Positions 18,901 through 61,845 of a stretch of 64,000 nt of DNA are shown here, piece after piece (the first letter of the stretch is position 1; every line of letters begins with the position of its first letter). The notes beneath the pieces were generated by a model. The model had not been told where the DNA came from, did no database searches, and saw only the letters and a list, made by a program, of their open reading frames with translations. The position numbers and the translations under genes were made by a program. Source of the DNA: Bolinopsis microptera (Eukaryota > Ctenophora > Tentaculata > Lobata > Bolinopsidae); NCBI RefSeq assembly GCF_026151205.1, contig NC_087075.1:11702303-11766302 (forward strand), read 5' to 3'.

Positions 18901-21900
18901 AAATACCGTGACACTGCTCAATAATAATTATTGTATCAGTATCGATATGAATTTAAACAAAATCTGTGAATATGATTTATTAATTTGACCAAAGATGCGG
19001 TTGTTTTTTGTCAACATATTGCCAAATCCTAGTCAGATATAGACTCAAGTTGAAATCTTCAAGTCTTACAATCTTGAATCTTTGAAAGATACAATTTAGA
19101 AAATTTGCATTTTGCAATTATAAATTACGACGAGTATGACATACTCAGTGGGGTATAGGATACAAGGGCGGTACTTTCCTTAAAGAGTGGACACGAGGGC
19201 GGGAATTTTCTATGGAGAAAATGGGAGAAAATGGAAAAACCCTTGACTTATTCTCCATTTATGCCATTGGCCCCCCCCCCCCCCCCCATCTGAGGACTGA
19301 GTCACAGGGGATAACTGTTGTATATCCTACCTTCTGAGAATCTTAGGGCAGTTTATCCTACTTTATATATATACTAGAAAGCCCATGGTCACAGGGAGGA
19401 AGCTAATAGTATTTTTTGTTAGTAAGTTTAAATTGAGTCAAAAAATATCACTAAACACAACTAAATGTAATATCAACAAAACCAATAAAAATGCCGTTTT
19501 AACAATCTTTGCACGTGCACGTGCGTGTAAGAACCCTCGTTACCATGGTTACTTTGCAACTACTTATTTCTCGTCTAATTTGCACGTGGGCGGTCGTACA
19601 GTGTACATACAACAAAAAGAATTTTCTGAATTATAGTAGAGACTAGAAAGCCCGTGGTAACAGGGACGAAGCTAGTAGTATTCTTTGAAAGAAAGTTTTA
19701 ATCGCAACAAAAAATATCCATCCCAACCGAAGATACAGCCGATTTAAATATAAAACACTTTAAACACAACATAATAACAACAAAACCGATCAAAATGACG
19801 TTAAAACAATCATTGCACGTGCACGTGCGCATCAAAACACCGTTGCTATGGAACGTTTTGGTTGTTACCTAAATTCCTATTTTTCATCAAATTTGCACGT
19901 GGGCGGCCGCGGTCGTACATACATACATTCTACAAAAAGAATCTTTTGAATTATAGTAGAGATTATATCCTATTATATATATATATATATATCCTACTTT
20001 ATCCTACTATATTCTACTATATCCTACTATATCCTACCTTACATAATACATCCTACTTTATATATATATCCTAGTGATCCTACTAGGCTACTATATCCTA
20101 CTATATCCTACTATATCCTACTCTATCCTACTATATCCTACTATATCCTACCTTTTGACTACAGAACTGTATCTGAGTGACAGGAGACTGCTGGGCACCC
20201 GTCAGAACCCACAGGGACATTATCTTGTACTTCTTACTGAAGGAGACTCGTCTCACGTCCTCCAGGAAATACCGGTCTTTTATCGTCATGTTGCTCGGAG
20301 ATCGGATAAAAATCGCTTCCGCTGATATCTGAAGAAGTTCTTTGGTTAAACGTGATCATTAAAATTAATACGAAGTTTAAGTTTTAAATCAAATACCTAT
20401 TAGAATTCACTGCTTTAGTTGATTATAATTCTACTCATGTTTTAACGTTCAGCAAGCGTCGTAATCGATCAAATGCCGCCTAAAGGACTATGTACAATAA
20501 CGACCCAAATCGGCAAATCGGTATGATAATTTGTACAGTATACATCCCAGCTTAGTCTTCTTCAATTAATGGCAACCGACGAGATTGGGGAGGGTAAAGA
20601 ATAGACGAATAATCGATCGATAAAAAGGACCCAAGACAACTATTTGGTACGGTATTTTGTTTAAATCTAAAACTTTTATTTTAATGAAATTTTATTAGCA
20701 TTGCTAACCTATCAACGAACTAGCTGAATAAGAACAATCTACAAACGAACATGTTTGGACATCTTCTACTCTGGTTTTTCGTGGACCTTGGAGGTAACTA
20801 AACGTATTAAATCTAAAAAAGATATTCAACTACTTCTTTATCTGATGGCAAAAAGTGTTAATACAATTGTTGACATTTAATTAACTCATTAAATATTTTA
20901 TATCATATACTGCCAGTATCTAATTTAAATAATCACAGAACTTATAAATTGAAATATCAATGACACAAATTATTGCCTAATTAATTAATAAACCTCAGAT
21001 GGGGCAAAGCTTTCGGAATGTCACTCTCATATGGGATGTTGGAAGGATAAAATTATTCGAGCTATAGACGGCTACAAGTTCGCATCAACCAACCCAATAG
21101 AAGATTGTTACCAGTTCGCTAAATTGAGCGGTTGGTCGGTGTTTGCCGTACAAAATAGGAAGCAATGTTATACAGCGGTGGATGCGGGAGAAACATATCA
21201 GAAATATAGAGAGTCTACAGTTCTACAAATTGCAAGGAAGGTGGGAAAGGTGGCTACTGGGGGATGGATGTTTACCTTATAGTTCCTGACTGCGACGATA
21301 AAGGTTAATATTTGAATATTTATAATCCAATCACAATACGATAGAGCATATGCCATATTATATATAAACCTTTTTGAAAACAACTATTCTGTTATTTCCG
21401 GGAACCTTTTAGTTTTAAAAAGAAAAAAAGATTCAATCAGTCAGATCTTGTATCTCATTACTTAATTAATCCAAATCTTACACCAAATTAAATTAGCAAG
21501 CACGATTTATAAACCGACTATGTCAGATGAAGAAAAAGTCCTCGAATGTCGCATTAATCTTGGATGGGTAGTGAGAGTAACCGAGCTATAGCAGACAAAA
21601 CGAGCTTGAAATCAGATAGACCAATTGAGGACTGCTACAACTTCGCCAAAGAGAGGAAATGGTGGGTATTTGGAATTGAGGGCCAGGCTGGTGATCAGTG
21701 TTACACGTCGGCAGACGCAGGGAGATATTATCAGAAAAATGGAAAGTCTACAAATTGCAAGGCGGGCGGTAGAGGGGGCCACTGGGCGATGAATGTTTAT
21801 TGTATTATTCCGGATTGCTCAGATCCAGGTAAATTTGTAGCCTACTTTTACCCTATTGCTTCATTACTTTGGAATATTTCATTACTTTGGAATATTTCAT

Positions 21901-24900
21901 CCCTGGAAGCAGTGATCGATTAGGGCATCTGCTAAAACCTTAGAGATTAGCCAGGTCTAGCATTTCAATATAAGATTTAATAAATGACTAATAATTATTA
22001 TTCAAATTTGAAATGTTCTTGTAGTTTGTAATATTCGCCATACTCTGTCTAAGCATCTGATTGACACGAACATCTTAAATATTAAAGATACACCGAAATT
22101 AAATTAGCTATACGGCCTAAGATGAGAAATACGTACGGTACGTACCTTTAAAAATATCTGTACGGTACGTACTTTTAAACTTGGGCTGAAAGGTACAGTG
22201 CTTGCAATTGCAATGGCGCTTTGAACTATGTTGGTTGAAAAAGCTGGCAGATGTTGTTTACGCGATTTTTAGCGCATCCTCATTGTGTGAAACAAACTTT
22301 AGAGACTACAATATCTTATGAATAAAGGAAGGCTGAAGCCTCAGATTGCTGAAAAACTAGTGTCTATTTACTCCAATAAGCACATTAAAATGCGATACTG
22401 ATTTTATCTGTCACTGCTCATTTTCATCTCTCATTGTTAATTTATTATCCTAATAAATAATTTTTCTCTTCGACTGCTACCTCAAATAAAATTATGATAA
22501 TACTAAATAGGAACATTGCGACATTAAAAGGAACATTGCAAGTACTCCACTGACTTTGAAAAAAGTTACATTTTTTCCAAAAAAGGCTGTACCCTATAGG
22601 GCCTGTACGTTACGTACCTTTAAAAGTTGCTGTACCGTACGTACTTTAAGCCCAGTACCGTACGTACTTCTCATTATAGGGTATACCGATGAATAAATTA
22701 AACAATGCCAGATGAGGAAAAGCTATTAGAAGGCCGCACTGATCTTGGATGCTGGAAGGATAGTGAGGATAGAATTATAGCAGACAAAACGAGCTTGATA
22801 TCAGATAGACCAATTGAGGACTGTTACAACTTCGCCAAAGTGAGAAAATGGTCGGTGTTTGGGATTCTGGCTGGTGACCAGTGTTTCACATCAGCAGATG
22901 CAGGGGAAACATATCAGAAACATGGGGAGTCAACAGATTGTTTGGAGGGAGGAAAGGGAGGCTCTTGGGCGATGAATGTTTATCGTGTTACTTCTTCTTC
23001 AATTGGTAAATATACCATATATAAATATAATATATCACCCGCGCGGCGCGCGTCGCACACGCTCTAAGTAAGTAAGCAGGCCCACTCTAATCCCATTCAT
23101 GACAAACTCAACTAGCTTTAACGCCGCTTAACTCAGATATCCAATTAATACCCTGCCAGTGCCATCCAATAAGATTAGCTATTTAAGTCGCACTTTCGAA
23201 GTTTCCCTTTTATTCGTCAAACTCAATTCTTCATGGCTCTTAAGTACTCTCACAACGAAAGGGTCACGTGGTCCAAAAGGACCATATCCGAACAACCTGT
23301 TCATGTTACCATAACCCGTTACCATAACAACCCGTTACCATAACAACCCGTTACCATAACAACCCGTTACCATATATGGTCTGATTACGGAGCCAGGGGA
23401 CATCATCTCGGCGATTTTTGTTGTTGTTGTTGTAGTTGTTGTTGTTGTTGGGAACCCAAAATGATAAAAGTTTACGCTTTAAAATGCCCGGGGAAATTGA
23501 GTGGATTATTATATTCACTATAGTAGAGTTCCTGGGTAATTTGTAATTATGCTATTATCCTGCAAAGTATTAGATATCAGGAAAAGATCTGTTGAGAGGC
23601 ATTTTAATTGCTTAATTGTATTATAATCACATTTTTAAAATTATATAATCACATCGGGAAGAAGGAGATCTGACCAGTACCATATTAATGTAGACACTTA
23701 GCTTGCTATTTCGTTTGTCCTCTTTGCGTTAAAACTGGCAAAGTTCCAGCATTACGGAAAGGAATATTTTTCCTCTGGTACCTCTTCTACCGGTCGACTA
23801 ACGTCGACTTCTCTTTTTTTCTCTGGATTATGATCCAGCTTGAAAAGTTGCCAAGATTTACCCTCTTTTGTTTTTTTTATCAAATATCGATAGTATTCAA
23901 ATTCATTGCTAAGTTGTCATCTGATAATAATAGTAAAGAAATTGTTCTACATATGCTTTTCTTGATTCTTAAAAGTTAGTCTACTTTCCGAAGCTTTTGT
24001 TGTTACGTCATAAAAAAACGTTTGATCCTTACCACAATCTTTTCGATTGTCGATCTAACCTCATGGTGCACAGCGATACAAAGTATAAGTTCACAAATCT
24101 GATAGAAAAAAAAATGTTATATCTTCGAGGAAGAGGCGACGGATGGAAGAAATACTCTAAAAAATGTGTTTTTTTATGACTTTATTTTTCTGATTTAAGA
24201 TTGTCTTTTGTTTATGGGTTTGTCAATATATAATACTTCAGTTACTGATTGCAGATCACCGTTCATTTCTAGCTAATCCTAGATGAATGCGAATCTAGAT
24301 TTCCTAATTATTCTTTGGAGTGCTCTCCTACACCTGTCAAATGCAGCGGGTAGGTCAAAAGATTAATAATAACTATGATACAAAATTGTTTCCTTATTAT
24401 AATACTTAACTATAATTAAATAAAAATTAAACTAAACATGGTCATGGAAAAGAAAAAGCATCACCCACTAGTGTAACATCACTGTCAAATTGAACAAATT
24501 GACTAACAAATAACAATAAATTTTGAAAACTTTACGGCCAAACAATGATCACCGCCTTGGTATCACCGCACCCTTAAACAGGTACTCTATAAGGAGACTA
24601 CGTATTAGTATTAGTACTAATTAATATTATAATTAGTACTAGATAGTAGTAGTTACAAATAATTAATTACTATTAGTACTTAATAATAGCAAACCCTTAA
24701 ACAATAAACAGGCACTCTAGGAGACTGCACACTAGAAAGGGAACATCTAGGGTGCTGGGCAGACAGATCCAGTAGAGCTATAAGTATAGTCAGACTTACC
24801 TCTAATAATTCTATAGAGGACTGTCAGGTAAGAATTTATTTATTTATATATTATTTATTATCAATATCTAAGATTGTTTTTTGTAATCAATTAAAAGTGT

Positions 24901-27900
24901 AATGTAAATTGTTATGTTTATTGTTAACAGATATTTCGTTGATAAAAACGGTAGTGTAATTAGAACATAATTTCCTCTTCAAGTTTATTGTTCCTGAAAG
25001 GCGACTTTTTGAAAATTTGTAACGGGCACCATAACCAAGATAGTGATTAGTGAAGGCATTTAAATTATATTCTTTGTCTCTTAGGTTTAATCTGTATGTT
25101 GTTAAGAAAGTTTTATTAACGTCTTGTATTATACATACTATAAAGTAGTGGAATGTATAAATATAATTACTGGGTCTGTGAACCTAGAATTTTAATCCAA
25201 TCTTTAAATTTTTTTAGAAATATTTATGATGACGTGTGATGATTTTGGTGTCATAATTATTTGATTTAATTTTATTTGATCTCTTTTGCTCAGAAATATG
25301 CAGCAGACAAGGGGTGGGTAATATTTGCGGTTCAATTCAGCAGCGAGTGTTTCACCGCTGCAGACGCGGCAGACACATACCAGAAATACGGGGCTTCCAC
25401 CGAATGTAATTCTAACGGGAGGGGCGGAGATTGGGCCCAGAATGTTTATCGTATCTCTTGTAAATCAGGTGACATATTAAATCGACCATAGTCAACATGG
25501 TGATGTCATAAGGTTTGATACTAGACAACTACTAGTTTATAGATCTGTGGATTGTGGTGGGGTGTAATAAACCAATAAGCTTCCACTATAATTGATCAAT
25601 TAAACCCCAGAATCACTGTAACGCGTAAAAATAAACCTAACCTCCCCACCAGAATCCACATCTATCATAATTATGATGAATATCCGAACTTGCACAAAGC
25701 ACACCATAATATATAATAGACATTTCAAAAACTTGCTGAAAATCACACATTTCGGACAGGTAATAAAAAGTCCCATTTTCCATACTATACTTTCAAATTC
25801 CTTATTCCATCCTCAGAAAAAGAGATAAAAGTGCTCCCGCCAACAGTGATAACAATATTGGCTATAATTAGCGCTGGTTTCCTCTGCTTTGTAGGATATC
25901 GTATCTACCGGCGGTCACAACATACACTGCTCCCTACAAGCACACCCCATTTGAGGAGCAGTGTTGTGATGAGTAACGAACAGCACGCCACGCCCGACTC
26001 ATCAATAAACCCACCAACCACCACACGTGTAACTACACACGTGACCACCACGCGTGTAACTACACACGTGACCACCACACGTGTAACTACACACGTGACC
26101 ACAACGCACGTGACCACACTTGTCACCGCATACGTGATGGACTCACCGCCCTCATACGATGACATTACTAAAAGTATTTGCGGTAAATATAGGGTTCCTA
26201 GCTACGAAGAGACAATAGCTAACAGTAACAGTGTTACTCGAAACGAATGAGGTGGATTTTAAAACAATTTTTGTTATTTTTCAAAACTTTTAGTCTCGGA
26301 CTTAATACCTATTTGCACCATTCCATTCAACACCAGCAACATAAAAATATAACAAGAACAACTCAAACCTCGAGAAGAAGAGTCTCGCCGGAGAGAGTGG
26401 TCCCCTGGTGAACTAGATAAGAAGTGCGCGGTAGCTGGGACCGCAGCGGTTTCAGGGTCAGCTGGTTCTTGGTTAGGTGCGGTAAATGTTCCTTGATTAG
26501 TCGTAAACGAGGGTTGAACTTTAGGCCGATGTGAGTTTTACCTGGGAAGAAAATTGTGCTGTCATAATATGTTTTTGTGCTAATTTATCATTTATTTTTG
26601 AATAAACAGTAGCAAACTTTTTTGCGAGATTTTACAATTTGAACTGTTAAAAAAATAGATTATCTACTAATTTCGTTCATTGCATGTGTATTTTTTATGA
26701 TGTTATGAAGTAAATATTATCGTAATGATCGTTAAATTAGAACCAAGAATGTTATTATTATTATGTTAAATTAAATGTTATAATTATGTCAAAATCACTA
26801 CCTTCCAATCTGGAGATTAACTTCATGATAGTTTTAGTTTCCACCTCCAGGGCCACCATGAACCCCACTATGTTCTTTATACACCCATACAATAGCTCGT
26901 CTTCATCCGTCTCTATTCGCTGTCTTCCTCGTTTGGAGTGCTTCGTGTATCTGAAATTTGGCTTTTTAAATCATAGTATTCAAAAATTATTATATAATTT
27001 ATATGTGACCGGTAACCGTAAAACCAAATCCAATATATAGGCTTGCCGTATGAACCGTGGAGCAGAAATGACTGAAATTTTTACTACGAACACTTTTATG
27101 TGCAAGTAATCGATGTACTATTATCATGATCATAATCATAATAACACGAAAGATTTGTTTTAATTCTAAGTAAAATACTCGAATAGATCCTAACCTGTCT
27201 TGCATTTCGTGAGGATATCGGTTCATGCCGAGTATTTCCCGTTCCGTGTGTACAGCATCGTAAAACATGCCCTCCCACGTGTCCTCCTTCTCCCACACAC
27301 TCGACCTGGTATACCACGACATCACAACAAAGTGACGTCATCAAATAGTGATGTCATCAAATTCAAATGGTTAATAATTGAAACAAACAATCACAAACAA
27401 TTAGTACAACCTAAAAATAATTCTGCTTACCGAACTTTGCCCAAAATTTCTTCGTACAGATACTTCCGATGTATGTCAGTATCAGGCGGCATGGTGCCAG
27501 ATGCCAGCAGAGATGTTGCTAAGTTCATTATTGAACTCGACTCTTCTGTCGGGGGTGATCCTGACTCGGGTGTTCCTGTTCATTATTTAAAGTTAATATA
27601 ATTAACTTAATAAACTTAATAAATATATATTTTCAAGGTTAAGTGGTCGCGTCAAATTTTGTGTCGGGAATCTTCATTGTTCATGTCAGATATAGTAGCA
27701 AACTATTTTACAGATGAGGCAAGAAGATATCATTATAACGTAGAATTATCTAATTATCTAATTATCTAATTGTGCACTCAATTAACGTCTAAAGAAAATA
27801 ACCAGGAGGGTTGGGACTCCGTTGAAGAGTAGTTTGCTTATCAGTACTGGGATATTGGAACTGAGTGGCCTCTGTCTCCGTGTCCGGTGTAGGAGGACAC

Positions 27901-30900
27901 ACTGAGGGCGTCAGGGTAGGTTGGGGAGTGGTGAGGGTTGCTGGAGAGGGTGGGGACCAGTCTGGGTCACGCGGTGAGCCTAGCTTCTGAACAAAGGGAG
28001 ATTTTAGATGAGAGAAAAAAGAAATAGTTCATACTTTCTCTCTAATTTAAGATCTAGGTTTCTAACTCGACTGTATAGTAGGTTGCTAGGAGTATGAGTA
28101 ATACTAAAATATTACTTTTTTAGTATTATTGATAGTCTGAGAAATCTACAGTTGAGTCGACTTAGAAACCTAAATATATATCCAAATTATGTATGTAAGA
28201 TCAGATTTCTAAAGACTAGAATCATTCCAAGGGTTATGATCTAGTAAAGGCTCTGGAGGAAGGACCCTGTTTTGGTTACCTCTGAGGAAGTAGAGGCTGC
28301 AGCCTGTGAGGACACAGGCCGGTTGTTGAGATCTTCACACCCGTTTAGTATCTGCTTTATCTCGTTCACTGCTGGTGACTCTGTAGTTGGAGTTGATGTG
28401 GTTACTAGTGGTTACTAATGGTTACTAGTGGTTAACAATACTTTGTACTGGTTACCAGTGGCACAACAGAACTCTCTAAATTTCTATTTAACAATGTTAA
28501 CTTCTCTTAGTACCTGAGGTGCTTGAAACTGACGATGTTTTCTTTTTCTTCTGGTCGGTTGTCTTGTTTATTTCAACTGAAGCGAGTTATATGTCAGACG
28601 GCTCATTTATTATTATAAACTATATCAAAGTTCAAAATATCTGAAAACAGCGATCCTAAGAACTTTATTGGTAGCTGTCTCAAAACATAAGAAGGTCCTC
28701 AAAAGATAAAACTAAATTTTCTCAAAAAATAACTTCCTGACGGCTCAACACTTTCAAAATCAACAATTTGCCATTTCAACAAAATTCCAGTATATAATAA
28801 TTAAATTAAGTGATGGTGAAGTGATTAGACAACAGATAATTATAAATTAGAGGAAAATTATGATTATTTACTATAACATCTAATAATTATTTACCATACA
28901 TGATCTTATAAAAACTAGAAAATGCTTGCTCACCATAAGCGCCCATATGGCGGGTGTAAGCCACCTCAAGAAGGGTAAAGATAGAGCCTATTCCAGAAGT
29001 GTTAGCTCCATCTCCCACCTGATCTATACCCTTTACTGCGTGTTTTAACAGCGATGCCAAACCTTTGAACACATCCGGTGATATTTGCTGCAATGAAACA
29101 TTAGTTAAATACTCAATCAATAAAACACTCAATTAACTTCGTTGTAAAAATAATAAATCATAATTATTTAAAATGAAATTTCCTTGGTTTTACAGTGATT
29201 TGTAAACGAGTGATAAAGAATCAGCTATCAGAGTAACCATTTAACCGTATTTATGTTTACCTCGTGCTGTATGACGTCACGATGTTGTCTCTTAGTAGTC
29301 GTACCACTGAGTATCCTATTAGCTACCAACAACCTAATAATATCATTGGTCACTGTAATCACCCAATCAGCGAGTTTGTTAATAATTAATTATAAGATAT
29401 GAATTTATTCATAATTAGAGAATTAGTGTGTTTACACGTGATTACGGTAATTAGCTAATTAATTAATTACCTGATGTTCTCGTCCTGCATGACAGTTGCT
29501 AAACGTTTGTTCTGGTACCAGGGTATACCCACACCATCCAACACATTGTTCACTATCTTACTACAGGATAATAACAATTAGATATTATGAATCAAATAAT
29601 TAAATTTAATTGTAATTAAGTACATGATTAATAAGTTTTTAGACGATTTACTAGGTTGGAATCATTAGTAATGACTACCCACCCTAATCAATAATGTAAA
29701 ACTCATTTGACACAATAATTACAGATACCTCAAGATCTGCACGACAAAGCAGCAGTAATGGAGCGGTAATTGAGCGGTAATTGAGTGGTAATTGAGTTGG
29801 TACCTGATGAAAGCAATGTCTTCAGAGGAGCTGCGAGGAGCAGTGTTGGTCATCTCCCCATTAGACCTGGTCCTGGTCTCACCAAGAAGTCTCCTCTGGA
29901 GAATGGGGCTGGAGGTGTTGCTGGTGGCGGGGGAAGTGTAGCCTGGGGAGGGGACAAGTTAAAGGGATTTACAGATTTTAATCCTAATCTAGAATGTTTG
30001 GATCAGAAAACTTAGAAGACCACACCTTTTCATGAGTTCAAATTCCGAAATTTGGCCTGTACATAATAATCAGCCGCACACTCTGTGTGATTTAATGAAC
30101 CTACCAGAGGAATGAGCAGATCTAGGTTTAGTGAGCCGGGAGTTGTCGGTATCGTCTCCTAGGTCTATCGATAGGAGGGAGTATCCTCTGGCAAACCCAA
30201 ACCTGTCCTGGTAAATATTGTTTGTTAATTATTTTACATCAGGTAGTATATTAGTAATATATTTCTGGCTTCACGTTACATTTTGGGTTCACAGTTGTAA
30301 ATAAGATTTTCGCATGTCTGCCAATTTTAGTATTTCTGGGGGAATTGATATTTCCTCTTCTGAGACTTTGGAATCATGGATCGTTTTGGACCAAGTCAGA
30401 TAGATATCTTATCTGGTTCTTATGGGTTATAATAAACTATATAACCACAATTAAAAAACGAGGAATGTCACTCTCTAAAGTTTAGAGTTTAGAGTCTAAA
30501 CTTTAAAATCATGCACAATACAAAATATAATAGAACTTTGTAAATGATCAATATACTTTAAATTGACTGGAAAACAACAAATAGCAAAGTGGTAGCTGAA
30601 GTAAATAGGATATGTTTTATAACACGAACGATAAATTACATGCGATTTCAGACTGCATCTAAAGAAATTGTGTGGCTGAAAAAGTAATCTTGTCAGCTGG
30701 CAGTCAGCTCAAAGGTTAAGCAACTGAATAGTTCCAAAACGTTTTGAGGGGACTATTAAAATTAAATCAGTAGCAGAAACTATGCTTCACTTGACGTTTA
30801 GCTAAAAGAAGTATCGTCGGTGTAGGTGGTTTCCAATTTGGTCTGGTCCAATAAGCGTGAGTGTTTGGGAGTGATAGTCGAGATGTTTCGTTTATCGATC

Positions 30901-33900
30901 TCTTGAGTCGGTCGATCATGATAGATTACTAGTGAAGAAATGAGAGTCTCCACTATTTCGTCTCTCATTTCGTCCCCAGTAATCTATCATGATAGTCGAG
31001 AGTGTTAGATCAGTGAAAGAGTATTCTGCACCACAAACAAACACGCACGTGCACAAACACGCGCGTGCACAAACACGCACGTGCACACTAAAAACATAGC
31101 GCACTACACATGATCCGTACTGGAACTCGAAGACGCTCGAAGCCTCGCTGGTCCTGCGGCTGCTGGTCTCTGACCGGAGTGCTGCAGAAGGGGGTCTGAT
31201 TGATAGAGCGTTGATAGCCGGTTCCATAGAGCATTCCGCGGTGCAGGGTAGACTTTGGGTCGATCCAGACGGGGACCATTGTTCAGTTAGTATGGCTAAG
31301 TTTTTTTTAATGAGAGGTAGGGATTTTTGTGCGACTGTCTTTTGCGTTTTGGCGGCTTCTTCGAGGCTGATTGCTCTAAGAGTCAAGAGAAATTAGGTAT
31401 AAATTTTGAACAGATTGGAAATGAAACTGCACATTTGAGGATACCATAGCGAGCTGCCATTCGCGTCACTGTTCGTCTGTTGACAAGCTATTAATATACT
31501 GACAGAGGTTAAAGCTCATGTCAGAAGCTGTGCATAGAAGAAACGGATAAATTAATATAAACGTGTTCAAAGCATGATTAGTTGAAATCAATCGGATTCC
31601 AAAACGGCAATCAAATATCCTGGCCTAAAAAAACGTTCATATCGTAGACTCAATTATGGATTGTCTGGAATTAAATCAACCCAAGCTCCAACAGAAATAT
31701 AAAATGCATTAATACCGTACCTATACGGGTTGAAATCATCTACCAGCGGATTGCACGGAGTGATGTGGAAGGAGGTGTCCGTGGGTTCTAGGGCAATGTC
31801 ACTGATGTGGGACGTGTCCACTGTTACTCCGGGTTGGACTGCTAATCGGGCTATCTCCATCAGAGTCTTACCTGGGTGATGTGGTTGGGATATTGAATCT
31901 AGGGGGAATTATGTACGGAGGATTAACGGAGGATTGTTTTTTACACTTAAAAAAAGTAACTATAAGATTTATCTTAATTATTCAAGAACTTTCAAACGTC
32001 ATAAAATTAGTATAAGTCTCAAAAGATCCGTCCGAACACAAGCTCTCTAACTTTACCCTGAATGTTAACAGACTTGGCAGTCTCTGGCTCTCCTACCACA
32101 CCACTTCCTGGATCACTCTCCGCAATTGAGGAGGTACTCCGTGATTTGGTGCCCGTGTGGGGAAGCATCTCAATACCTAGTGTGTTACCTGCCGGACAGA
32201 TGCTGTGTTCTATAAACTCTACCTGTGGGTTGTTAGCTTGTTATTGTGGGGAAGCATCTCAATACCTAGTGTGTTACCTGCCGGACAGATGCTGTGTTCT
32301 ATAAACTCTACCTGTGGGTTGTTAGCTTGTTATTGTGGGGAAGCATCTCAATACCTAGTGTGTTACCTGCCGGACAGATGCTGTGTTCTATAAACTGTAC
32401 CTGTGGGTTGTTAGCTTGTTATTGTGGGGGAGCATCTCAATACCTAGTGTGTTACCTGCCGGACAGATGCTGTGTTCTATAAACTCTACCTGTGGGTTGT
32501 TAGCTTGTTATTGTGGGGAAGCATTTCAATACCTAGTGTGTTACCTGCCGGACAGATGCTGTGTTCTATAAACTCTACCTGTGGGTTGTTAGCTTGTTAT
32601 TGTGGGGGAGCATCTCAATACCTAGTGTGTTACCTGCCGGACAGATGCTGTGTTCTATAAACTCTACCTGTGGGTTGTTAGCTTGTTATTGTGGGGGAGC
32701 ATCTCAATACCTAGTGTGTTACCTGCCGGACAGATGCTGTGTTCTATAAACTCTACCTGTGGGTTGTTAGCTTGTTATTGTGGGGAAGCATCTCAATACC
32801 TAGTGTGTTACCTGCCGGACAGATGCTGTGTTCTATAAACTCTACCTGTGGGTTGTTAGCTTGTTATTGTGGGGAAGCATCTCAATACCTAGTGTGTTAC
32901 CTGCCGGACAGATGCTGTGTTCTATAAACTCTACCTGTGGGTTGTTAGCTTGTTATTGTGGGGAAGCATCTCAATACCTAGTGTGTTACCTGCCGGACAG
33001 ATGCTGTGTTCTATAAACTCTACCTGTGGGTTGTTAGCTTGTTATTGTGGGGAAGCATCTCAATACCTAGTGTGTTACCTGCCGGACAGATGCTGTGTTC
33101 TATAAACTCTACCTGTGGGTTGTTAGCTTGTTATTGTGGGGAAGCATTTCAATACCTAGTGTGTTACCTGCCGGACAGATGCTGTGTTCTATAAACTCTA
33201 CCTGTGAGTTGTTAGCTTGTTATTGTGGGGAAGCATTTCAATACCTAGTGTGTTACCTGCCGGACAGATGCTGTGTTCTATAAACTCTACCTGTGGGTTG
33301 TTAGCTTGTTATTGTGGGGAAGCATCTCAATACCTAGTGTGTTACCTGCCGGACAGATGCTGTGTTCTATAAACTCTACCTGTGGGTTGTTAGCTTGTTA
33401 TTGTGGGGGAGCATCTCAATACCTAGTGTGTTACCTGCCGGACAGATGCTGTGTTCTATAAACTCTACCTGTGAGTTGTTAGCTTGTTGTTAAATAATGT
33501 TAGCTTGTTATTGTTAACCAATATAACAGTGTAACAATGCTAAATATGTACGAGTCGTCTCGATGAGATGATAAATCAGCATTTATACGAGTAAGCATTT
33601 TAGCTTTTAAGACAGACCTGATCACTAAACCATATCAGCTTGTCTCCGATCAGTGTTTGATCGGAATTCCCGGATACTATTCTATGTACGACTGTGTTGA
33701 GGGGGCAAACTTCACTTTCACCAAACGCTTGAAGACACTGCAAAAAGGTGAAACATTAATAAAGGAACGAAATGGGAAAACTGATAAAGGCACTTTCAAC
33801 ACGAATCTGCATGCAATGAGTCCAATATTCTCATTACAAATAATCTTAAAATTTGCCACTTGATTATCAGATAGAATAGTGAATGTCTACTCACGCTAGT

Positions 33901-36900
33901 CTCTGACAGTCTCTGAAGGAACAAGGAGGGTTTTCCGGTGGAGCAATTTCGGAGGAAAGCGTTCCTCTGTAGGTATGTGATGGGACGTGGGAACAGTTTC
34001 ACTATCTCAGATGATGCTTAAACTTGCCTGTGGGTGGTATGGCTTGTTATTTAGGCTGTACAAATTGTTTGATGTGATTTTCCATGATATTTTTGTCTCC
34101 AAAGCTAGAACAAAATATTTTAGCTGTTAGCGGTTAAACACATAATTCAGGACTGGAGTTATAAAGTTTAACAAAATACAGTAAGCACGAACTATCAACA
34201 GTTTAATCATTGATAAATCCATCGGCCTAAATCTGACCTAGAACATTGGCAGACATGAAGAACTTTATCATAGCCACTCTGATCTCAACATCAATCGTAT
34301 TGAGGTCACGTGATCCTCCAGGTAAACATTCCCTGGGGTTTCTCCGAGAGTACAATAGTTGCAAACACTGAAATTTGGTTTGTTAAATAAGGGATCATGT
34401 TCTAAATTGAACGGATAACTCGTTTAGTCGAATTTACACAGTCTAACATTCTGTTGTACGCAAAGTTGTTTCTGTTTTGATGAACGACCTGTGTCTGCTG
34501 ATTAGCTCATTACTCCAAACGTACACCAATGTGATGTTTGAGAAATTGGTAAAATAGTACAGGGAAATCCGTCTGAAAAAATCGATCTGCTGACACACGA
34601 AGCTTACAAAGGATTTTTGACGTTTTTGAGTCCTAATAGGTGCCCTCTATGGCTGACCAACTTTTCCAAACTTTTCCACGTGGCTTAAGGCCACTTTTTG
34701 CCACTTTACCACTTTTTACCACCTTTCTTGTTTGTCGAATATCTTTAGTTGTGAACATCGTAAAAGGTTGCGAATCAATCGAGTGTGTTCATATTATCAG
34801 GAAGAAAAACTTTTGTTCTAACAATTTTTACGTCAGATAATAAGTTAATTGGATAATTCTCAATTAACCAATTAGCAAAATTCTAAAAAATTTTTATTGG
34901 CTAAAAATGATCGGAATAGCTTAAAACACGGAGAAAAGTAGTTTTTAGAAAAAATTTGAAAATTTTTCACTTACATTTTTTTTTCGAGACTTCGAAAAAT
35001 TTCGAAAATTCAAAATATTTTTTTCCGCCAAAAGTGATCAAATTGCATGAAACGCGGAGAAAAATGATTTTCAAAAAAAACTTAGTCAATTTTTCGTTTC
35101 AAGAATACTTAAATCACCAATATTTGTAGTTGGAGTTTAGTAAATCTCGGCAGATTTTAGTAATAATCAGGAATTACTAACTCTAAGTGGAAAGGTCTGA
35201 AACCTTAATACATATCGAGCTTAATACATATCGAGCTATATTCAATCACAATACGACACAGTACGTGTATATTATATGGCTCTTAATGAGGTTTATGAAA
35301 CGCTTTATACCGTGAGAAACCCGGTATAGAGAGATTTTACAGTTTATCACGAAAACGTCTACTTGGTCTCATGGCCCATTTACAGTTCGAAGAAGGGCAA
35401 GAACAGATCAGGGAAACTGAGGAACAGCCAGGTCCAGGAAGCAAGTGTAAATACACCTTCCAACGTCTACTGTAACTGTTTTGTATTGTACTGCATACCG
35501 CTTCATTTGCGGGATACCTCAAATCACCCCCATATGTCAGGGTCGGCTAAAAGTAAAATCAACAAGGGTAACATACGGGAAAGGGTAAGATTTAGATACG
35601 AGTACAGTGTCGGGCAAGGGGTAGTAAAGAACCGGTAATAATTAATTCAGTGAAATGTTCCACGAGAGTCAGGATATTTTGGAAATTGCTAATAGAGACA
35701 GATCCTGATCAGGAAGGATTGTTAATGTTATTGAGGATGTTGATTTGAAATCCGGACGTCCGCGTCGTGAAGTAAAAATACAGGTTCTTCCCGCAGGATA
35801 TTCGGGGCCCATGATGATCAGCTCGGGATTAATGTGGGACAGATCGAAGACTGACAACTGAACCCAATTGAACCTAGTTCCCACTAACCAATCAGCTTAA
35901 TTGGTTAGGGTTAAGGTTAGGGTTAGGGTTAGGGTTAGAGTTAGGGTTAATCTAAATGTCTAAATTGGGTTCAGTTGTCCGGTAGCCCGCTCTTGCGAGT
36001 TGACATTCTAAGCTTTTTGGTCTTTTCTTGCCTTCTTTGAGCTGTCAAAGAGCCATGAGACCAAGTAGACATTTTCGTGATAAAATGTAAAACCTCTCCA
36101 TATCGGGCCTCTCACGGGAGAAACGAGAAGTGTACGGTATAGAATATTTCATATACCTCATTAAGGGCCATAATATAATATACACGTGTTGCATTGTGTC
36201 GTATTGTGATTGAATATAGCTCGATATGTATTACTACTTAGTTTACATCACCCACCAAATGCAATATGAACAACTCGGTTTGATTGTTGAGGAAAAGAAG
36301 AGGTCTGGTAATACAGGTAGGCCGGTTTAGATTAGCACAATTGACGGTACAGAGAGGTTTCATTTATTACAAATCTTAACCCCACTGATTCATCATTGAA
36401 ATCAATAAAATGACAGTACAGCAGGCTATCGTTTCTATCTTGACTGTGCCATTGGTGCAGTTTCTGTGAAAATCGATAAGGCTGTATTGTAATTAGTTAT
36501 GAAACTCTTATATCGCGATCGTATGGTTAAACTTAACGTTTTTCAGTTTCAGACCTTTCCACTTAGAGTTAGTAATTCCTGATTATTACTAAAATCTGCC
36601 GAGATTTACTAAACTCCAACTACAAATATTGGTGATTTAAGTATTCTTGAAACGAAAAATTGACTAAGTTTTTTTTGAAAATCATTTTTCTCCGCGTTTC
36701 ATGCAATTTGATCACTTTTGGCGGAAAAAAATATTTTGAATTTTCGAAATTTTTCGAAGTCTCGAAAAAAAAATGTAAGTGAAAAATTTTCAAATTTTTT
36801 CTAAAAACTACTTTTCTCCGTGTTTTAAGCTATTCCGATCATTTTTAGCCAATAAAAATTTTTTAGAATTTTGCTAATTGGTTAATTGAGAATTATCCAA

Positions 36901-39900
36901 TTAACTTATTATCTGACGTAAAAATTGTTAGAACAAAAGTTTTTCTTCCTGATAATATGAACACACTCGATTGATTCGCAACCTTTTACGATGTTCACAA
37001 CTAAAGATATTCGACAAACAAGAAAGGTGGTAAAAAGTGGTAAAGTGGCAAAAAGTGGCCTTAAGCCACGTGGAAAAGTTTGGAAAAGTTGGTCAGCCAT
37101 AGAGGGCACCTATTAGGACTCAAAAACGTCAAAAATCCTTTGTAAGCTTCGTGTGTCAGCAGATCGATTTTTTCAGACGGATTTCCCTGTACTAAAATAG
37201 ATAATCGAGACATTCAAATGGGGTAAAATTAGCTGCTAAATCGATCGGCAAAAAGTGCGCGGCTCAGATTGATGTTTCGGAAAATGGTGCCGCGAAAAAC
37301 TTTTCTAGTAATTTTGTCCTTGCGCGTTACCTAAATCAAATGCTTAGAGAGGTTCTGTCAGATTGAAATTATTCTGTCTTCTTCTCACTGCTCATCGTAG
37401 CTAATTTAAGCATAATCATACCAACTATTGAACAGAAAATACAAAGATTGGCTACCTTTCTGAGCTCCTGACTAATTTCAGAGCCTTGCGGTTCAGGGAA
37501 GGTTGGCATGGGCGTTCTCCTCAGGATCTGAAAGAAAGTAGGTAGCATTAGCGACGGCAGGTAATGTTTATAATCTATAATGCGTGGTCAGACTTCGTGT
37601 GCTTATAACTAACAGGCGAATAAAGATTATGATCGAGGTGGCATTTCTCTACAGTTTAAAACTTACTCCAATTACTTAATATTTGATACATAACATTTGT
37701 ACGATTTAATGTAACTAAGATATAATGTAAATGGAGGTTACCATACTATTAACTATTACCTTTCCTGTGTCAATATTTACGAATACAACGTCTTCCGGAA
37801 CTTCCATTTTGTTTACTATGAAGAATGTCGAGGGAACCCCAAAGAGAAATGGCATCGGTGACCTCAATATCTGAAGTTAATTTATTAAGTCTTCAGTCAG
37901 TTAATAAATTCTATAGATATGTTAACAGATGGTGTTGTATTGTTAATAGGTTCAATAGGTAGGTAGGTTCTGATAAGATCAAGATCAATCTGAAACTTAT
38001 CTAATTGCCATAATATCAGTCTTCAATTGTGGTACAAACAACTTTAGTTTCTGTATTGCTACTCTTTTTTAGATGGTCCGTTCGAGTAATGTCAGCGGTG
38101 GAGACGGTGGTGACGCCAACTCCAACATATTTAACCCGAAGAAGAAATCATTTGTATCAACAACCATTGCATTAATGATCAGCTTCGCCACATTTAACAT
38201 CCGTGGGCTCGGTGTTCAGCAAGATGATAGCCTACATAGTAAACGTGAGTTACTAGGATTAGACTGTGAAAAGTACAATGTCGACATCTGCGCTCTGCAG
38301 GAAACTAAAGTCACCGAATCAGACAGCCTTGTTTTGCGCAACGGTTTTAACTTGTTTCTGTTCGAGCAGTTGGAAAGTCGCCATGGAGGCTTGGGTTTTA
38401 TAATCAGTCCTCGCATGATGAACTATGTGGTTTGCTGGAAGTACATCAGTGACCGGGTATGCTATGTCGATATTTGCATCCCCTCACGTAGCGGTACACC
38501 CCTACGTTGCAGGGTGATCAATGCCTACTGTCCACATCAGGGGCTAGTCCGTAAAAATCCAGTTGTTTTGGATAACTTTTATGGGCAGCTAAGAGAGGCT
38601 AAGAATGTACCCTCTAATGTGGAGTTGCAATTTCTGGGTGACTTTAATTCAAAACTGGGTAAATTATCCCCTTCTGATATTGAACAGGGTTTTGGTAGAT
38701 ATATGAGGAAATACGGAATGGGAGTAAGGAACGAAAATGGTTCTAGATTACTGGATTTTATCTCAGAAAATAATCTGTTTGCTGTGAACACTAGTTTTAT
38801 ACAACCTAGCAGACGTGTTACATCATTTACTGGTTGGCGGAAGGATTGGTCGGCTGGTCGGTACAGTAAGAAGACACTGCCTGTATACTCTCAAATAGAT
38901 TACATACTATGCCGAAATAGATCTAAGTGTCTTTTGACTCAATCAAGAACTTATGCTGGTACTAAAACATTTTCAGATCATAGACTTGTCATTGCTCGCA
39001 TCAATTTCAGCAACATTCATCTTTGTTTCAAACCTAAACAACGTCGTGTTCCTTCTTATAATATATCAGAACTTGTAAGCAACAAAGATATGCAACATAA
39101 ATATCACTTGGCCCTTGAAGGCAAGTTCTCAAATTTTGTGACCAGCAACGATCCAAATGCCGACCTTCAAAATCTTATGTCTCATATTCGTGATGCTGCC
39201 AATGTTTCCATCGGCCCAAAACCTAAAGCTCGCTTGAAACATCACAGCAGTGATGACACTCTCAAAGAGCTTGTTGAAAAGCATCACGATCTCCGACAGC
39301 TACTTAACAATAATCAATCTCTTGATCGAACTACATTGAGGTCATCCATCAACCACCTCACTAATAGTATCCAGAAAAGATTAGTTGAAGTGAGGTCTGC
39401 TCAAGCTGATCAGACCTATAGTGATATTACTAACACAAACGATTCAAGGAAAATGTTTGAAGCAGTAAGACATCTTCAGAAAAGTAAACCACCTAATAAC
39501 TCGATTGGTGTTCATGATGAAAATGGCTGTTTGATTGCATCTGACGACATGAAAGCTTCTGTTGTTAGAGACTATCTCGAAAAACAGCTGACTCGCAATG
39601 AGCAACCTCTCGAGCCTTTTGAGGGACTACCACGTGCTCTCAATGTCCCTTTTACTGGAGTTGAAATACATGCAGCCACCTCTAGCTTGAAAAATGGGAG
39701 GGCAAATGGTCCCGATGGAATACCCAACGAGCTAATTAAGTACTCTAATAGTACAGTCCATGAACATTATGCTGGAATCATCAACAGTTGTTTCGAGACA
39801 CATACTTTCCCCATTTCCATTGGAGAGGCTACTATAACACCCTTACAGAAGCCAAAAAAACCTATTGGTCCTCTGAAGAATTTACGTCCACTCACCTTGT

Positions 39901-42900
39901 CCAATGCAGCCAGAAAAATTCTGTCTATGGCTACTCTTAAAAGGATAGAAGAAAAAGTGAACGCCTTCACTGGTCCATGGCAGTGCGCATATAAACGCGC
40001 TCGTTCTTGTGCTGATATTGTTTGGTGTCAGCGAGTTCTACTGTCAGTTGTCCAAAGAAAGAAATGGGAGTATCATCGCATGGGCATTGATATGTCTAGT
40101 GCATTTGACACGATCAAACGCACTACGATTCTTGAACTCCTGAAACTGTGTGGCTGTACTGAGGATGAGCTGAGGATTGTCCGGTTGTTGTTGTCCAACA
40201 CAAAGCTACCGGTGAAAGTAAATGGAGTTCTTTCAGCCGAGTTTTTAAGTCTCCTTGGAGCTTTCCAAGGTGACTGTCTATCCGGCTGTCTGTTCACCCT
40301 TGTCTTGGCTGGTGCTTTGAATGAACTTAGATGGACTATAACAATCAGTTTAGATAGGCCGATCCCCCCGATTACTATTGCTGGCCTTCCACTTGACACT
40401 GAATATGCTGATGATGTTGACTTCAATGATGAAGAGGAAGACAACTTGAGAGCTATTTTGCCCCAGGCAACAGCTATACTCGAGAAATGGAACCTCTTTG
40501 TCAATGAAGACAAAACGGACTTCACTCATGTTTATTTAGCTAGTACGGGTGAAGTCGACAGTGATGGAAAATTAGTGTCGGGGAATGAAGCATGGAGGAA
40601 AAGTATCACTCTAGGGTCCGTCTTGTGTAGCAAAGCTGATATTCAGCGTCGCATAAACCTGGGATATGCTGCCTTTAACAATTACAAGAAGGCCTGGAGT
40701 GATAAACTGCCCCTAAACAAACGTATAATACTGTATAATGCTTTAGTCGTATCGGTTCTTATGTACAACTCATCCTGTTGGGCCGTCCCCAAAATATTCC
40801 TTGAAAAACTAGATGTTGTTCACCGCAGACATCTTCGCACTATTTTGAATATAAAGTACCCAGGAGTCATCTCCAACAAAAACTTGTATAAACGCTGCAA
40901 TGCTGAACCATTGTCAGAAAAAGTGGCCCGTAGTCGGTGGAGAATGTTAGGACATGTTTTGCGGGGTCCTATTGACGGACCAGCGTTTTCTTCCCTCATT
41001 TTTGCCATCAATACACTGGACTTACCAGGGAGAAGAGGAAGACCCCAAAGCAATCTATTCTCGCTGATTGTGCATGATTTATGTAAAAGAAATCTTTATT
41101 TAAATAATATCTTTGACCTGCATTATCTCCGTAATTTGAGTTATGACAAGAGATATTGGCGGAAATTGCAATGAAGTTTTTAATTTTTAGTTTTTGTTTT
41201 AGGGAAAGATTAGACTTGGGCGTTGTTTTTTAAACTATCCCTTGTTTAGAACTTTGATTTAATAATTGCTACTCTATAATATATCGTATAAATTAATGCA
41301 ACAAAATCGCAGATAAATATAACCTTGTAGAGCATTAAATGGTAACAACATATTCTCAATTTCATGCAACTTTATAAAATTGTGTTTGACAAACCTCTCC
41401 AGTGCTAGCTCCAGGCATGCTGACAGGCAATACAGGTATAACATTGTAGATGTACTCCAGAGGGTATAACAGGGCGATCAGAGCAAACACACATGTAGTA
41501 AGGTGAGAATAGTTCTCACTCGTCAAAACCACCTGAGGTAATTATCTGATTAGGTAATTAGTTAGTTAATTATAACGAGGTCTGATCGTCATCTTCTTAC
41601 AGCGTTTGATGTCTGTGTGAAGGTAAAATGGTGACATCCTCTGGATCAGGCAGAGGTCGAGTTGTATCGGGATTACTTCTGTAGTAGTTGTACACTGTAC
41701 AGCAATACTACCTTACAGCAATATTTTTATATTACCTTAGTATTGCTGTACAACTACTACAGTTAGTTAATTAGTTAATAATCTAACTGTTTCTTGGTTA
41801 GTTAATGGTGTAAAAATACACGCATTGTGTAGTGATGGGAAAGTTATTTTCGCTTTAAAAACAGACTGAAAAGGCGTGGCTTAACAAAATCCCGCTATTT
41901 CCGCGTTTACCTACAAATCATAATGCGAATTACGACATGATATTATTATTTAGTACAAAGCTTTGTTGTTCCGTAAAAAAATCTATAAGCTAATAAAATA
42001 CTGGTTGATATTTGATGGAATATTTAGCATGGCTACAATTTATTCAGTTACTACTACAGGTACGAACAGTTAAAACTACTGTAAGATTGCGAAACAACCA
42101 CTTTAAACTTCCGGCAACTATTTTACAACATCTTACTCCGGGAAGTACCATCATTTCCTTGATCTCCGCACCACTTACAAACCACTAATCTGACAGATAG
42201 TGGTGCTCCCTTCCCCCTGACAACTGCTACCTTGACGATTCTGTGTCAGACTAAGCATGATCCTGTAGACTTATTTAATCAGTCTGCTTGCTTCACCCGA
42301 AATGCAGTTTATATCCCAATTACTTGCAGTAGCTGCATCAAGTAGCGTTGCTTCACCCGAAATGCAGTTTATATCCCAATTACTTGCAGTAGCTGCATCA
42401 AGTAGCGTTGCTTCACCCGAAATGCAGTTTATATCCCAATTACTTGCAGTAGCTGCATCAAGTAGCGTTGCTTCACCCGAAATGCAGTTTATATCCCAAT
42501 TACTTGCAGAAGCTGCATCAAGTAGCGTTGGTGCACACAGCATTGCTTGATTTGCGTCATAAGCTACTTACCCCGCCCTTCCCTGGCTTGCTTGTTATCC
42601 TACTAGCCTACTATCCAGTCCTTAAGTGATGTTTAAATCTTTACAATGCCTTAGATTACGCTAACGTACCATGTTAAATGTGGGAGGTTTGAAGGGGTGG
42701 TAATGAGGGGTGGTAATGAGGGGTGGTATGAGGGGTTGTAATGAGGGGTGGTAATGAGGGGTGGTAATGAGGGGTGGTAATGAGGGGTGGTAATGAGGGG
42801 TGGTAATGAGGGGTGGTAATGAGGGGTGGTAATGAGGGGTGGTAATGAGGGGTGGTAATGAGGGGTGGTAATATAATGAGGGGTGGTAATGAGGGGTGGT

Positions 42901-45900
42901 AATGAGGGGTGGTAATGAGGGGTGGTAATGAGGGGTGGTAATGAGGGGTGGTAATATAATGAGGGGTGGTAATGAGGGGTGGTAATGAGGGGTGGTAATG
43001 AGGGGTGGTAATGAGGGGTGATAATGAAGGGTGGTATGAGGTACTGAGCTTCCGGTAAGATGGCGTGATAGGTACAGAATAATAAGTGCTTACTGCTCAT
43101 TAACATGATGCTCATTTAAATAACTACACAAATCATTTATAAAGGGTTTTCAATACACGTACATACTAGTCACTTGGTGTAAGTGTTCCTTTACATTTAG
43201 TTCCAGAACTGTACGAAAATAATATCATCTTCAGTAAGTTCTAGATTGTTTGATTTACAAAACAAAGAACACCCAATCCCTGGAGCTGCTGTCGATAGTC
43301 TGTATGGTGCTAGAGAGTAAGTCTGTAGACCTCTGTATTTAACAGACACGTACTAATTGTCTTGTTGTCGTAGCTCTGATAGGTTACCAGTACCTAGGTA
43401 AGTATAGCGCTTTGTTGTTTACAGAACCAGGCAGATACCTTATAACCGTATTATATACTACATACCAGATACTACATAGTTAGTACAATAGTACATACCT
43501 TATATAGTATATACTACAATCGAACCTCTATGTACCGCGCCTCTCTATAATACTGGATACCTCGACATACCGCGCCGGGCCTCTTCTATTCCAAAAACTT
43601 TTAGCTAATTAGCTCTTTTTTTGCAAGAAATATAATATATTCTCTTTATTATAGCTCTTATCGCATCGCATTTGGTGATGATTTAAGTACATGTCGAGCT
43701 GTATTATATGACAATGCGACGCAGTACGTGAATATAAGGCCCTAATGAGTAATGACTAATGGGGTATGTGACTGTGAGACACTTGACAGGTTATTTGAGA
43801 GGCTACAGACAATGGGGATTGGGATCATGTGAACCCCGGTATTGAGTTTTGACCGTAACAACCTTTTATTACCTTAAATATACTTCATACCAGATACCTT
43901 TTATATTACGTGCTAGATATTTGTGCTTAGTAGTGCAACATTTACAACGTGTTCAGTGTTCATCACAACCACCACAACCACCACTACAACCACCACCACC
44001 ACCACCACCACCACCACCACAACCACCACAACCACCACCACAACCACCACCACCACAACCACCACAACCACCACCACCACAACCACCACAACCACCACCA
44101 CCACCACCACAACAACCACCACCACCACCACAACCACCACCACAACCACCACAACCACCACAACCACCACCACAACCACCACCACCACCACCACCACCAC
44201 CACCACAACCACCACCACCACAACCACCACAACCACCACCACCACCACCACAACAATCACCACCACCACCACAACCACCACCACAACCACCACAACCACC
44301 ACAAATACCACCACAACCACCACCACCACCACCACGACCACCACAACCACCACCACAACCACCACCACCACCACAACTACCACCACAACCACCACTACAA
44401 CCACAACCACAACCACAACCACCACCACACATTGTTAATTAACATTAATTACAATTTATCATGATCAGATATACTCCCTTATTATCAACTGCCTCAACTC
44501 CTAACACAATATCTAATTTTACAGTAAGAATTACAATAGAACCTATCTACCCTCCCACAGCTTCCTAATCAACCGTCATTAAATCCACCAGCAGAAAATA
44601 TACACTAATCAAACCCAAGATTACAACACTGCTTCCTGATTGGTTGGCTGGACCACGTGATCAGGAGATCTGGCCGCTGATTGGTGGAAACCCACGTGGA
44701 GTGTGGCGAACAAATGGAACATTGCTTTTGTCTGATTCTGGGTGTAGTATGTTGTATCCAGGTTAAGATACATTGTATTTTATACATTGTATTTATACAT
44801 TGCACAGTGTACACACACTACTAGTATCAATTACTCAGTTTTATACACTAGTTACTGTACTATATAGTTCAAGGGGGCTATATTTATGAGTCGCATTTGA
44901 AACTGATTTCTCTTGGAGAATTTCTCTTTACACTCTTAACTTGCGAACAAATTGAAGCAGCAGACTTTAGGCTAGAAACTTTATTGAATAGAAATAATCA
45001 TTCCACGTAACAACGTCTTCTTCAGTTCTGTAATAAAATTGTTAAACATGTGTAAAATTAACGACGGAAAGAAATTTAAAATTTTTTTTTTTTTCAACAG
45101 TTTGTAATAAGATTCGCAACTACATCAAATCTAACAAACTCCCCATCAGAGTTATTTTTACACCTGGTAAGAAGTTACAGGACATCTTCTGCCGCTCTCG
45201 TCCACTGGATAAGAAGACTTGTGACCTTGGTAACCCTAACAATTGTGAGATCTGCCCTAGACTCACAGGAACAACATGCTCAACAAAAGGAGCTGTTTAC
45301 TTAGTTACTTGCGAGTTATGTGGTAAGAGATACTGTGGGGAAACTGAGAGAAGCCTCCATGCTCGTCTTATGGAGCACAGACAGGCTGCTAGGAATCCTA
45401 GAGCACATCCAGAGAATGGGGTTGGACAGCACTACGCATCTCTACATCCTAACCGAACCCCAGTTTTATCTTTTAAGTTACTTGATTTACAGAGTAAAAC
45501 TGTTCGTAGAAAGATTGTAGAAGCGATGTATATATTGAGATTAAGTCCTGAAATGAATGATCGTTCTGAGTTGAGTTATTTATACAAATATTTAGTCGAT
45601 ATTTAACTAGTAAGTAATGTATTGATAGGATTATCTTGGATAGTAACCATGACAACCGAGTTATCGTTGCTATAGTGCTTAGTTTTATCAATAGTTTTTG
45701 CACATGAATTGTGAATTCTGAACAACCAGTTTTACGTTTACTAATTAGTATAGTATCATGAGTAGTACAGTATTTAGTTGTTTTAGCTTACATTTCTTCT
45801 TGTCGTATTTTTTGTTGTTTTGAATTTTTTGCAATTACATTTTTTGGGTCATATTTCGTAAATTTTATTTTTCTGTTTTTGTTTTAATGTTATTTTAAAT

Positions 45901-48977: not shown

Positions 48978-49010
<33 letters not shown>

Positions 49011-61718: not shown

Positions 61719-61845
61719 CTGTGGTCACGTGACGTCAAGTGTGTGAAACGACGAATTAAACTTTATAATGTTGCAAATTTATTATGAAGGAGCATTGTAA
61801 ACAAGTCTATAAGTATAAGCATTACATGAACATATTCCTTATTAC

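Follow-up and report, generated by a model that had tools for sequence, protein, structure and literature searches.

The stretch considered here, a window of 64,000 nt from the lobate ctenophore Bolinopsis microptera (contig NC_087075.1, positions 11,702,303 to 11,766,302 of the forward strand), contains on its minus strand a gene of 33 coding exons (14390-53502), in which the start of exon 14, together with the splice site before it, stands in a tandem array of 15 copies. The gene is identified from its sequence as a full-length orthologue of MADD, the Rab3 guanine nucleotide exchange factor (GEF). Pfam searches on the concatenated exons returned uDENN (1.1e-11), DENN (1.1e-22) and Death_MADD (1.2e-7), in agreement with a first-pass annotation of this DNA, which had already named the gene. 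Exon limits were set by tblastn of a reference protein, P0002, on the window; P0002 is the full-length MADD of Mnemiopsis leidyi, a predicted protein of 1,318 amino acids. With exon 14 in its copy 15 version, the 33 exons form a single stop-free frame of 1,317 amino acids, and BLASTP of this product against P0002 gave 1223 identical columns out of 1323 (92.4%). An annotation of M. leidyi aided by RNA sequencing (RNA-seq) is described in PMC12221973, and P0002 may derive from it. Within this one gene, the shortest of the 32 introns measures 125 nt.

The array (32156-33490, minus strand) lies inside the MADD gene, with all 15 units placed head to tail. Tandem Repeats Finder reports a period of 89 bp and 15.0 copies at 32156-33488, with a score of 2596 and 98% matches, which bears out the copy number and unit length given by the first-pass annotation. 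The pairwise identity among the copies averages 98.6% and does not fall below 95.5%; only five sites vary, in a non-periodic pattern, and such near-identical units in head-to-tail order are those of a minisatellite. When 269 bases of the array were compared with the B. microptera genome, six matches were obtained among the best candidates scored, all of them in this array. No structured RNA was matched at Rfam gathering scores between 31400 and 34500. Open reading frames (ORFs) of 70 amino acids on the plus strand of each unit were considered as genes and rejected, being expected of any repeat and without support.

Each unit contains the motifs that had been quoted for it, ctaac, cccacag (ctcacag in copies 1 and 4) and CAG/gtaaca, and each copy reads cacag/GTAGAG, so that AG/GT falls at the same unit position in 15 of 15 copies. 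The unit had been described as a complete splicing cassette, made of a 34-nt exon and a 55-nt intron, with the exon more conserved than the intron. A single change within the 34-nt stretch across all copies (G to C in copy 13) does agree with that description. The excess of conservation does not hold, with one variable site in 34 positions versus four in 55 (Fisher p = 0.65). Past the 34 nt, the exonic variable sites are unit positions 54 and 60, neither of which alters the amino acid encoded by exon 14 (GAG/GAA and CTT/CTC).

The exons around the array were placed by tblastn of P0002 and by reading frame. Exon 12 (33895-34016, minus strand, LFPRP...) is the exon that had been numbered 13 and thought to precede the array directly. 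Between the two lies a 120-nt exon that had been overlooked, here exon 13 (33618-33737, minus strand, CLQAFGESEVCPLNTVVHRIVSGNSDQTLIGDKLIWFSDQ, donor CAG/gtctgt), whose translation gives the peptide CLQAFGESEV...WFSDQ. From its donor to the first acceptor, the unrepeated part of intron 13 covers 149 nt (33469-33617, minus strand), and the array edge at 33490 is 22 nt ahead of 33468, where the exonic part of copy 1 begins; measured to the last acceptor, intron 13 comprises 1,395 nt. Exon 15 (31721-31871, minus strand, GKTLMEIARLAV...) has 151 nt.

The corresponding segment of Mnemiopsis P0002 runs ...FSDQ-VEFVEHSICPAGNTLGIEMLPHTGTKSRS...KSVNIQ-GKTLM..., in which the array peptide VEFIEHSICPAG is followed by NTLGIEMLPHTGTKSRS...KSVNIQ-GKTLM. 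Bolinopsis copy 15 continues likewise, unspliced (GTAGAG...CCCCACACGGGCACC for the copy with its continuation). The supposed donor CAG/gtaaca codes for ...PAGN..., and the coding sequence in the last copy extends 132 nt beyond it. Because P0002 reads through the supposed donor, CAG/gtaaca is coding sequence, and the 89-bp unit consists, by homology, of 22 nt from the end of intron 13 and 67 nt from the start of exon 14. The cassette proposed earlier therefore keeps its acceptor, which is a true MADD exon acceptor, and loses the limits of its 34-nt exon. Exon 14 as most likely used (32057-32222, minus strand, 166 nt, VEFIEHSICPAGNTLGIEMLPHTGTKSRSTSSIAESDPGSGVVGEPETAKSVNIQ-G) is copy 15 with its unique continuation and corresponds to P0002 residues 506-558. 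Copy 15 is the only one of the 15 copies for which the tblastn alignment covers this full range; the matches of the other copies end at residue 528 or 529, apart from one weak row that reaches 539 at 71%. As a separate observation, the acceptor regions of exon 12 (34060-34016) and of the array exon (33500-33456) are alike (AATAACAAGC..A.ACCACCCACAGG); in the comparison of acceptors, only one pair scored higher.

Copy 15 is likewise the only one of the 15 whose acceptor, with the true exon 14 donor, leaves the frame open into exon 15. The acceptors of copies 1-14, read to that donor, meet a stop in 14 of 14 cases, after 30 residues of the exon or, in copy 12, after 33, and the resulting exons would measure 255-1,412 nt, versus 166 nt with copy 15. 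A single 34-nt piece, ending at the internal CAG/GTAACA and joined to exon 15, keeps the frame in the copies translated (1, 8 and 15), because the internal and the true donor share the same phase, whereas two, three or four such pieces lead to a stop; both outcomes had been foreseen in the first-pass annotation. A 34-nt piece joined to the full exon 14 also gives a stop, and so does skipping.

In terms of splice-site strength, the array acceptor scores 8.71 bits, which exceeds 9 of the 29 acceptors of the gene and is reached by 2.2% of the 3,736 AG dinucleotides that the minus strand of the window contains. Joining exon 13 to any copy would rebuild the sequence CAG/GTAGAG, which scores 7.8 bits as a donor, higher than 14 of the 30 gene donors and than the actual donor of exon 13 (CAG/GTCTGT, 6.82 bits). 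Thus, the donor and acceptor scores of the array AG/GT both lie in the range of the sites of the MADD gene. The internal donor CAG/GTAACA (CAGGTAACA) reaches 9.26 bits; 26 of the 30 gene donors score lower, and one gene donor is letter-identical to it. As predicted strengths, these values suggest that each copy has an acceptor that can be used, and that the internal donor should not be discarded lightly.

The explanation that probably accounts for this arrangement is that a minisatellite has multiplied a 3' splice site, and that the surplus copies are removed with intron 13 while the acceptor of copy 15 is used. Copies 1-14 would now be intronic, with copy 15 alone continuous with the rest of exon 14. 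Once exon 13 is finally joined to the copy 15 acceptor, the other 14 copies would leave with the 1,395-nt intron, and a full-length mRNA would result. The choice of copy 15 is likely made by exon definition, because only this copy gives an exon of normal size (166 nt) with a real donor. If an early copy were joined and read to the true donor, translation would stop after about 30 residues, and the transcript would be a predicted target of nonsense-mediated decay. An early choice of acceptor need not be final: since every copy is AG/GT and exon 13 ends in CAG, the junction would again read CAG/GTAGAG, and two or more units might be removed in a second step. The off switch through nonsense-mediated decay, which had been attributed to the inclusion of surplus microexons, survives as an idea by this other route, the wrong choice of acceptor, and by way of RNA decay the number of copies might modulate MADD.

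Several points weigh against this explanation. The use of copy 15 is inferred from DNA and from one orthologous protein, P0002, which is itself predicted; moreover, a protein cannot reveal extra intronic copies in the Mnemiopsis gene. The splice-site matrices were trained on sites of the MADD gene itself (30 donors and 29 acceptors), and the internal CAG/GTAACA outscores the true exon 14 donor (9.26 versus 6.74 bits), which favours some use of a shorter form of exon 14. No Bolinopsis protein covering the array was found in public protein searches, and the NCBI Bolinopsis protein P0001 begins downstream of the array, in another frame of 31375-31121. The open frame of the gene also depends on shifted acceptors (34016 and 30202) at two exons that are one base short.

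A query with the exons of the window returned, at E <= 0.001, one protein, the NCBI B. microptera 'MADD-like isoform X1' of 764 amino acids, and a search for a Bolinopsis N-terminal fragment gave one oomycete DENN protein only. The late start of P0001 was considered as a sign of the array and rejected, as the frame break sits at 30207-30160, though the array could add to it. An optional exon of 255 nt may be present at 31375-31121; its length is a multiple of three and it is frame-compatible, but it does not occur in P0002, and the start of P0001 falls within it, in another reading frame. The two short exons (34027-33998 and 30207-30160) each lack one base relative to the Mnemiopsis protein, and both read ...GATAG where Mnemiopsis has Arg-Ile. 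At these places the upstream frame (GKFKHHLR and TGLGLPEDTPSYR) ends with TAG, and ATA opens the conserved frame downstream. Acceptors located 11 and 5 nt further on (34016 and 30202) restore the frame, whereas the acceptor at 34027 does not. The shortfalls may be real deletions, sequence errors or something else.

Among the alternatives, a possible though somewhat unlikely one is that the array acts as a series of recursive, or dual-specific, splice sites: joining to any copy would rebuild the donor CAG/GTAGAG, and one or more 89-nt units would be removed by further splicing, as far as copy 15, so that the array would be self-removing whichever acceptor is taken first. The sequence has the hallmark of a recursive site, an acceptor followed by GT from which a donor is rebuilt after the first step, and has it in 15 of 15 copies, with the rebuilt donor scoring above that of exon 13 (7.8 versus 6.82 bits). 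Introns of whole-unit length would restore the frame by construction, and sites of this kind are known from the tandem repeats of UBC and VCX3A, as described in the available text of PMC10809524. A single 89-nt unit is, however, shorter than the shortest intron of the gene (125 nt), and therefore removal seems feasible only in steps of at least two units.

It is unlikely, in our view, that one 34-nt piece from any copy is spliced straight to exon 15 through the internal donor, as a minor or regulated isoform. The open frame obtained for copies 1, 8 and 15 and the higher score of the internal donor are in favour of such a form, which would drop 44 residues corresponding to a serine-rich linker. 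P0002, however, has the long form only, and the part that would be dropped is conserved with Mnemiopsis in two blocks.

The same degree of doubt attaches to the proposal that the array is a burden or a regulator of dose, most transcripts stopping at early copies and being degraded, with a copy number that varies among animals and sets the MADD level. It is consistent with the finding that 14 of the 15 acceptors lead to a stop and have almost identical sequences, and near-identical tandem units usually vary in number. Against it stands the strong conservation of MADD along its length, which implies that enough correct mRNA must be made.

The reading given in the first-pass annotation, an array of 34-nt microexons separated by 55-nt introns, in which the number of joined copies serves as a counter, is now very improbable. 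It can draw on the high score of CAG/GTAACA and its identity with a real donor of the gene, and on the fact that one copy joins exon 15 in frame while more copies give a stop. But Mnemiopsis has conserved coding sequence in place of the supposed donor, an intron of 55 nt would be less than half as long as the shortest of the 32 introns of this one gene, the 34 nt are conserved no better than the remainder of the unit, and the true exon 13 had been missed; the cassette was rejected on the read-through of P0002, the additional exon and, within this one gene, the intron lengths. An assembly artefact, with a true copy number of one or of some other value, is hardly credible either: a single assembly stands behind the copy number, but the copies differ at five sites without periodicity, and 1.3 kb is well within the length of long reads.

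The probable multiplication of a 3' splice site by a minisatellite can be compared with several known systems. In the tandem-repeat genes UBC and VCX3A, dual-specific splice sites have been reported, at which AG/GT serves as both 5' and 3' site (PMC10809524, as far as its accessible text goes). The MADD array resembles them in having AG/GT at the same place in each unit, so that introns of whole units are possible and extra units could be spliced away. The UBC units, by the same partial account, are in-frame coding monomers whose number is altered by splicing, whereas the MADD unit has 89 nt, a length not divisible by three, and reading through into a second unit gives a stop, so that no complete in-frame protein repeat is present per unit. 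Unlike that of UBC, the MADD unit spans the border of an intron and an exon, brings an intron end of its own and has extra copies that cannot be coding.

In the potato RdRp gene, a tandem duplication across an intron-exon boundary led to the gain of a new intron, as demonstrated by RNA-seq (PMC4974935, from the portion available). There, too, the duplicated segment holds an intron end and an exon start (22 nt and 67 nt in MADD), and a formerly exonic GT may become the new donor, of which CAG/GTAACA would be the MADD analogue. The two systems differ in that the potato gene, within what the source describes, has two copies and an intron seen in RNA, while MADD has 15 copies identified in DNA. 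In addition, a new intron starting from CAG/GTAACA would be 55 nt long and leave a frame-breaking 34 nt, unlike the potato case.

Recursive splice sites, i.e., AG/GT sites inside introns, are cited in the accessible text of PMC10809524. When an exon is spliced to such a site, a donor is formed anew at its end, as would happen in MADD. Recursive sites are generally known as single sites in very long introns, whereas MADD has 15 near-identical sites 89 nt apart in an intron of 1.4 kb. An intronic variable number tandem repeat (VNTR) of ABCA7 is reported to alter splicing (PMC5954066, available part), and the MADD array is comparable in being a minisatellite beside exons that may affect splicing; the ABCA7 repeat is intronic, while the MADD unit contains a splice site and coding sequence. 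Thus, the MADD locus combines features of UBC/VCX3A and of the potato gene, and differs from them by its 15 copies, its non-triplet unit and its one productive outcome. No prior report of an array of 3' splice sites was found in the open-licence literature at the level of titles and the beginnings of abstracts, which is no proof of absence.

A working Rab3-GEF gene with 15 near-identical acceptors represents a natural test of how the spliceosome chooses among equal sites. Distance, order of transcription, exon definition and stepwise correction are all candidate rules for this choice, and because the copies differ at five sites, RNA reads could partly tell which copy has been used. If splice-site arrays were common in the Bolinopsis genome, they would let intron growth be observed directly, together with the material from which tandem duplication produces new introns. 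If the array is merely carried in an intron, it is an instructive near-miss, in which the appearance of a cassette exon in the sequence is refuted by one orthologous protein.

Two further arrays of the MADD gene begin at or near donors. One of them, with 16.2 copies of a 21-bp unit (14980-15320, minus strand), starts within the donor region of exon 31, which ends at 15326 (CAG/gtaacagtcacttcttt). The other, with 17 copies of a 10-bp unit (GTAGGATATA; 19988-20151, minus strand), sets in right at the donor of exon 28, which ends at 20152 (AAG/gtaggatata). Together with 29751-29796, 28398-28434, 46762-47308, 15415-15483 and 48978-49015, these are the arrays located no more than 25 nt from a MADD exon end. 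With the 15-copy array left out, they represent 7 of 27 merged MADD arrays, versus 1.22 expected under random placement in introns (P = 0.0004), in a single gene that had been chosen for holding an array. Three of the 27 lie within 6 nt of an exon end versus 0.4 expected (P = 0.006), and restriction to at least three copies and a period of at least 6 leaves 5 of 16 arrays versus 0.66 expected (P = 0.0002). Among 89 arrays in 200 kb beside the window, donor- or acceptor-like edges were intron-side in 22 cases and exon-side in 12 (p = 0.12), a comparison partly confounded by donor-like words in some units. A general process can be proposed only tentatively and is, on balance, quite doubtful: minisatellites would be seeded at splice sites and be self-removing via their own AG/GT or donor, arrays at exon edges would lengthen introns, and the 15-copy MADD array would be a working example, removed stepwise, whose copy number sets the productive fraction of the mRNA.

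The window contains several other features. By eye, a plus-strand ORF of 1,033 amino acids in MADD intron 8 (38073-41174) resembles a non-LTR retrotransposon (LTR, long terminal repeat) with endonuclease and reverse transcriptase, and a plus-strand ORF of 186 amino acids in intron 7 (45046-45606) looks like the GIY-YIG endonuclease of a Penelope-like element. Plus-strand exons at 20992-25491 encode a repeated Cys-rich module (GCWKD...CYQFAK...) and, again by eye, apparently belong to a gene nested in MADD intron 27. At the end of the window, a satellite-like array (61831-64000) with interleaved periods of approximately 274, 313 and 355 bp runs past the last position.
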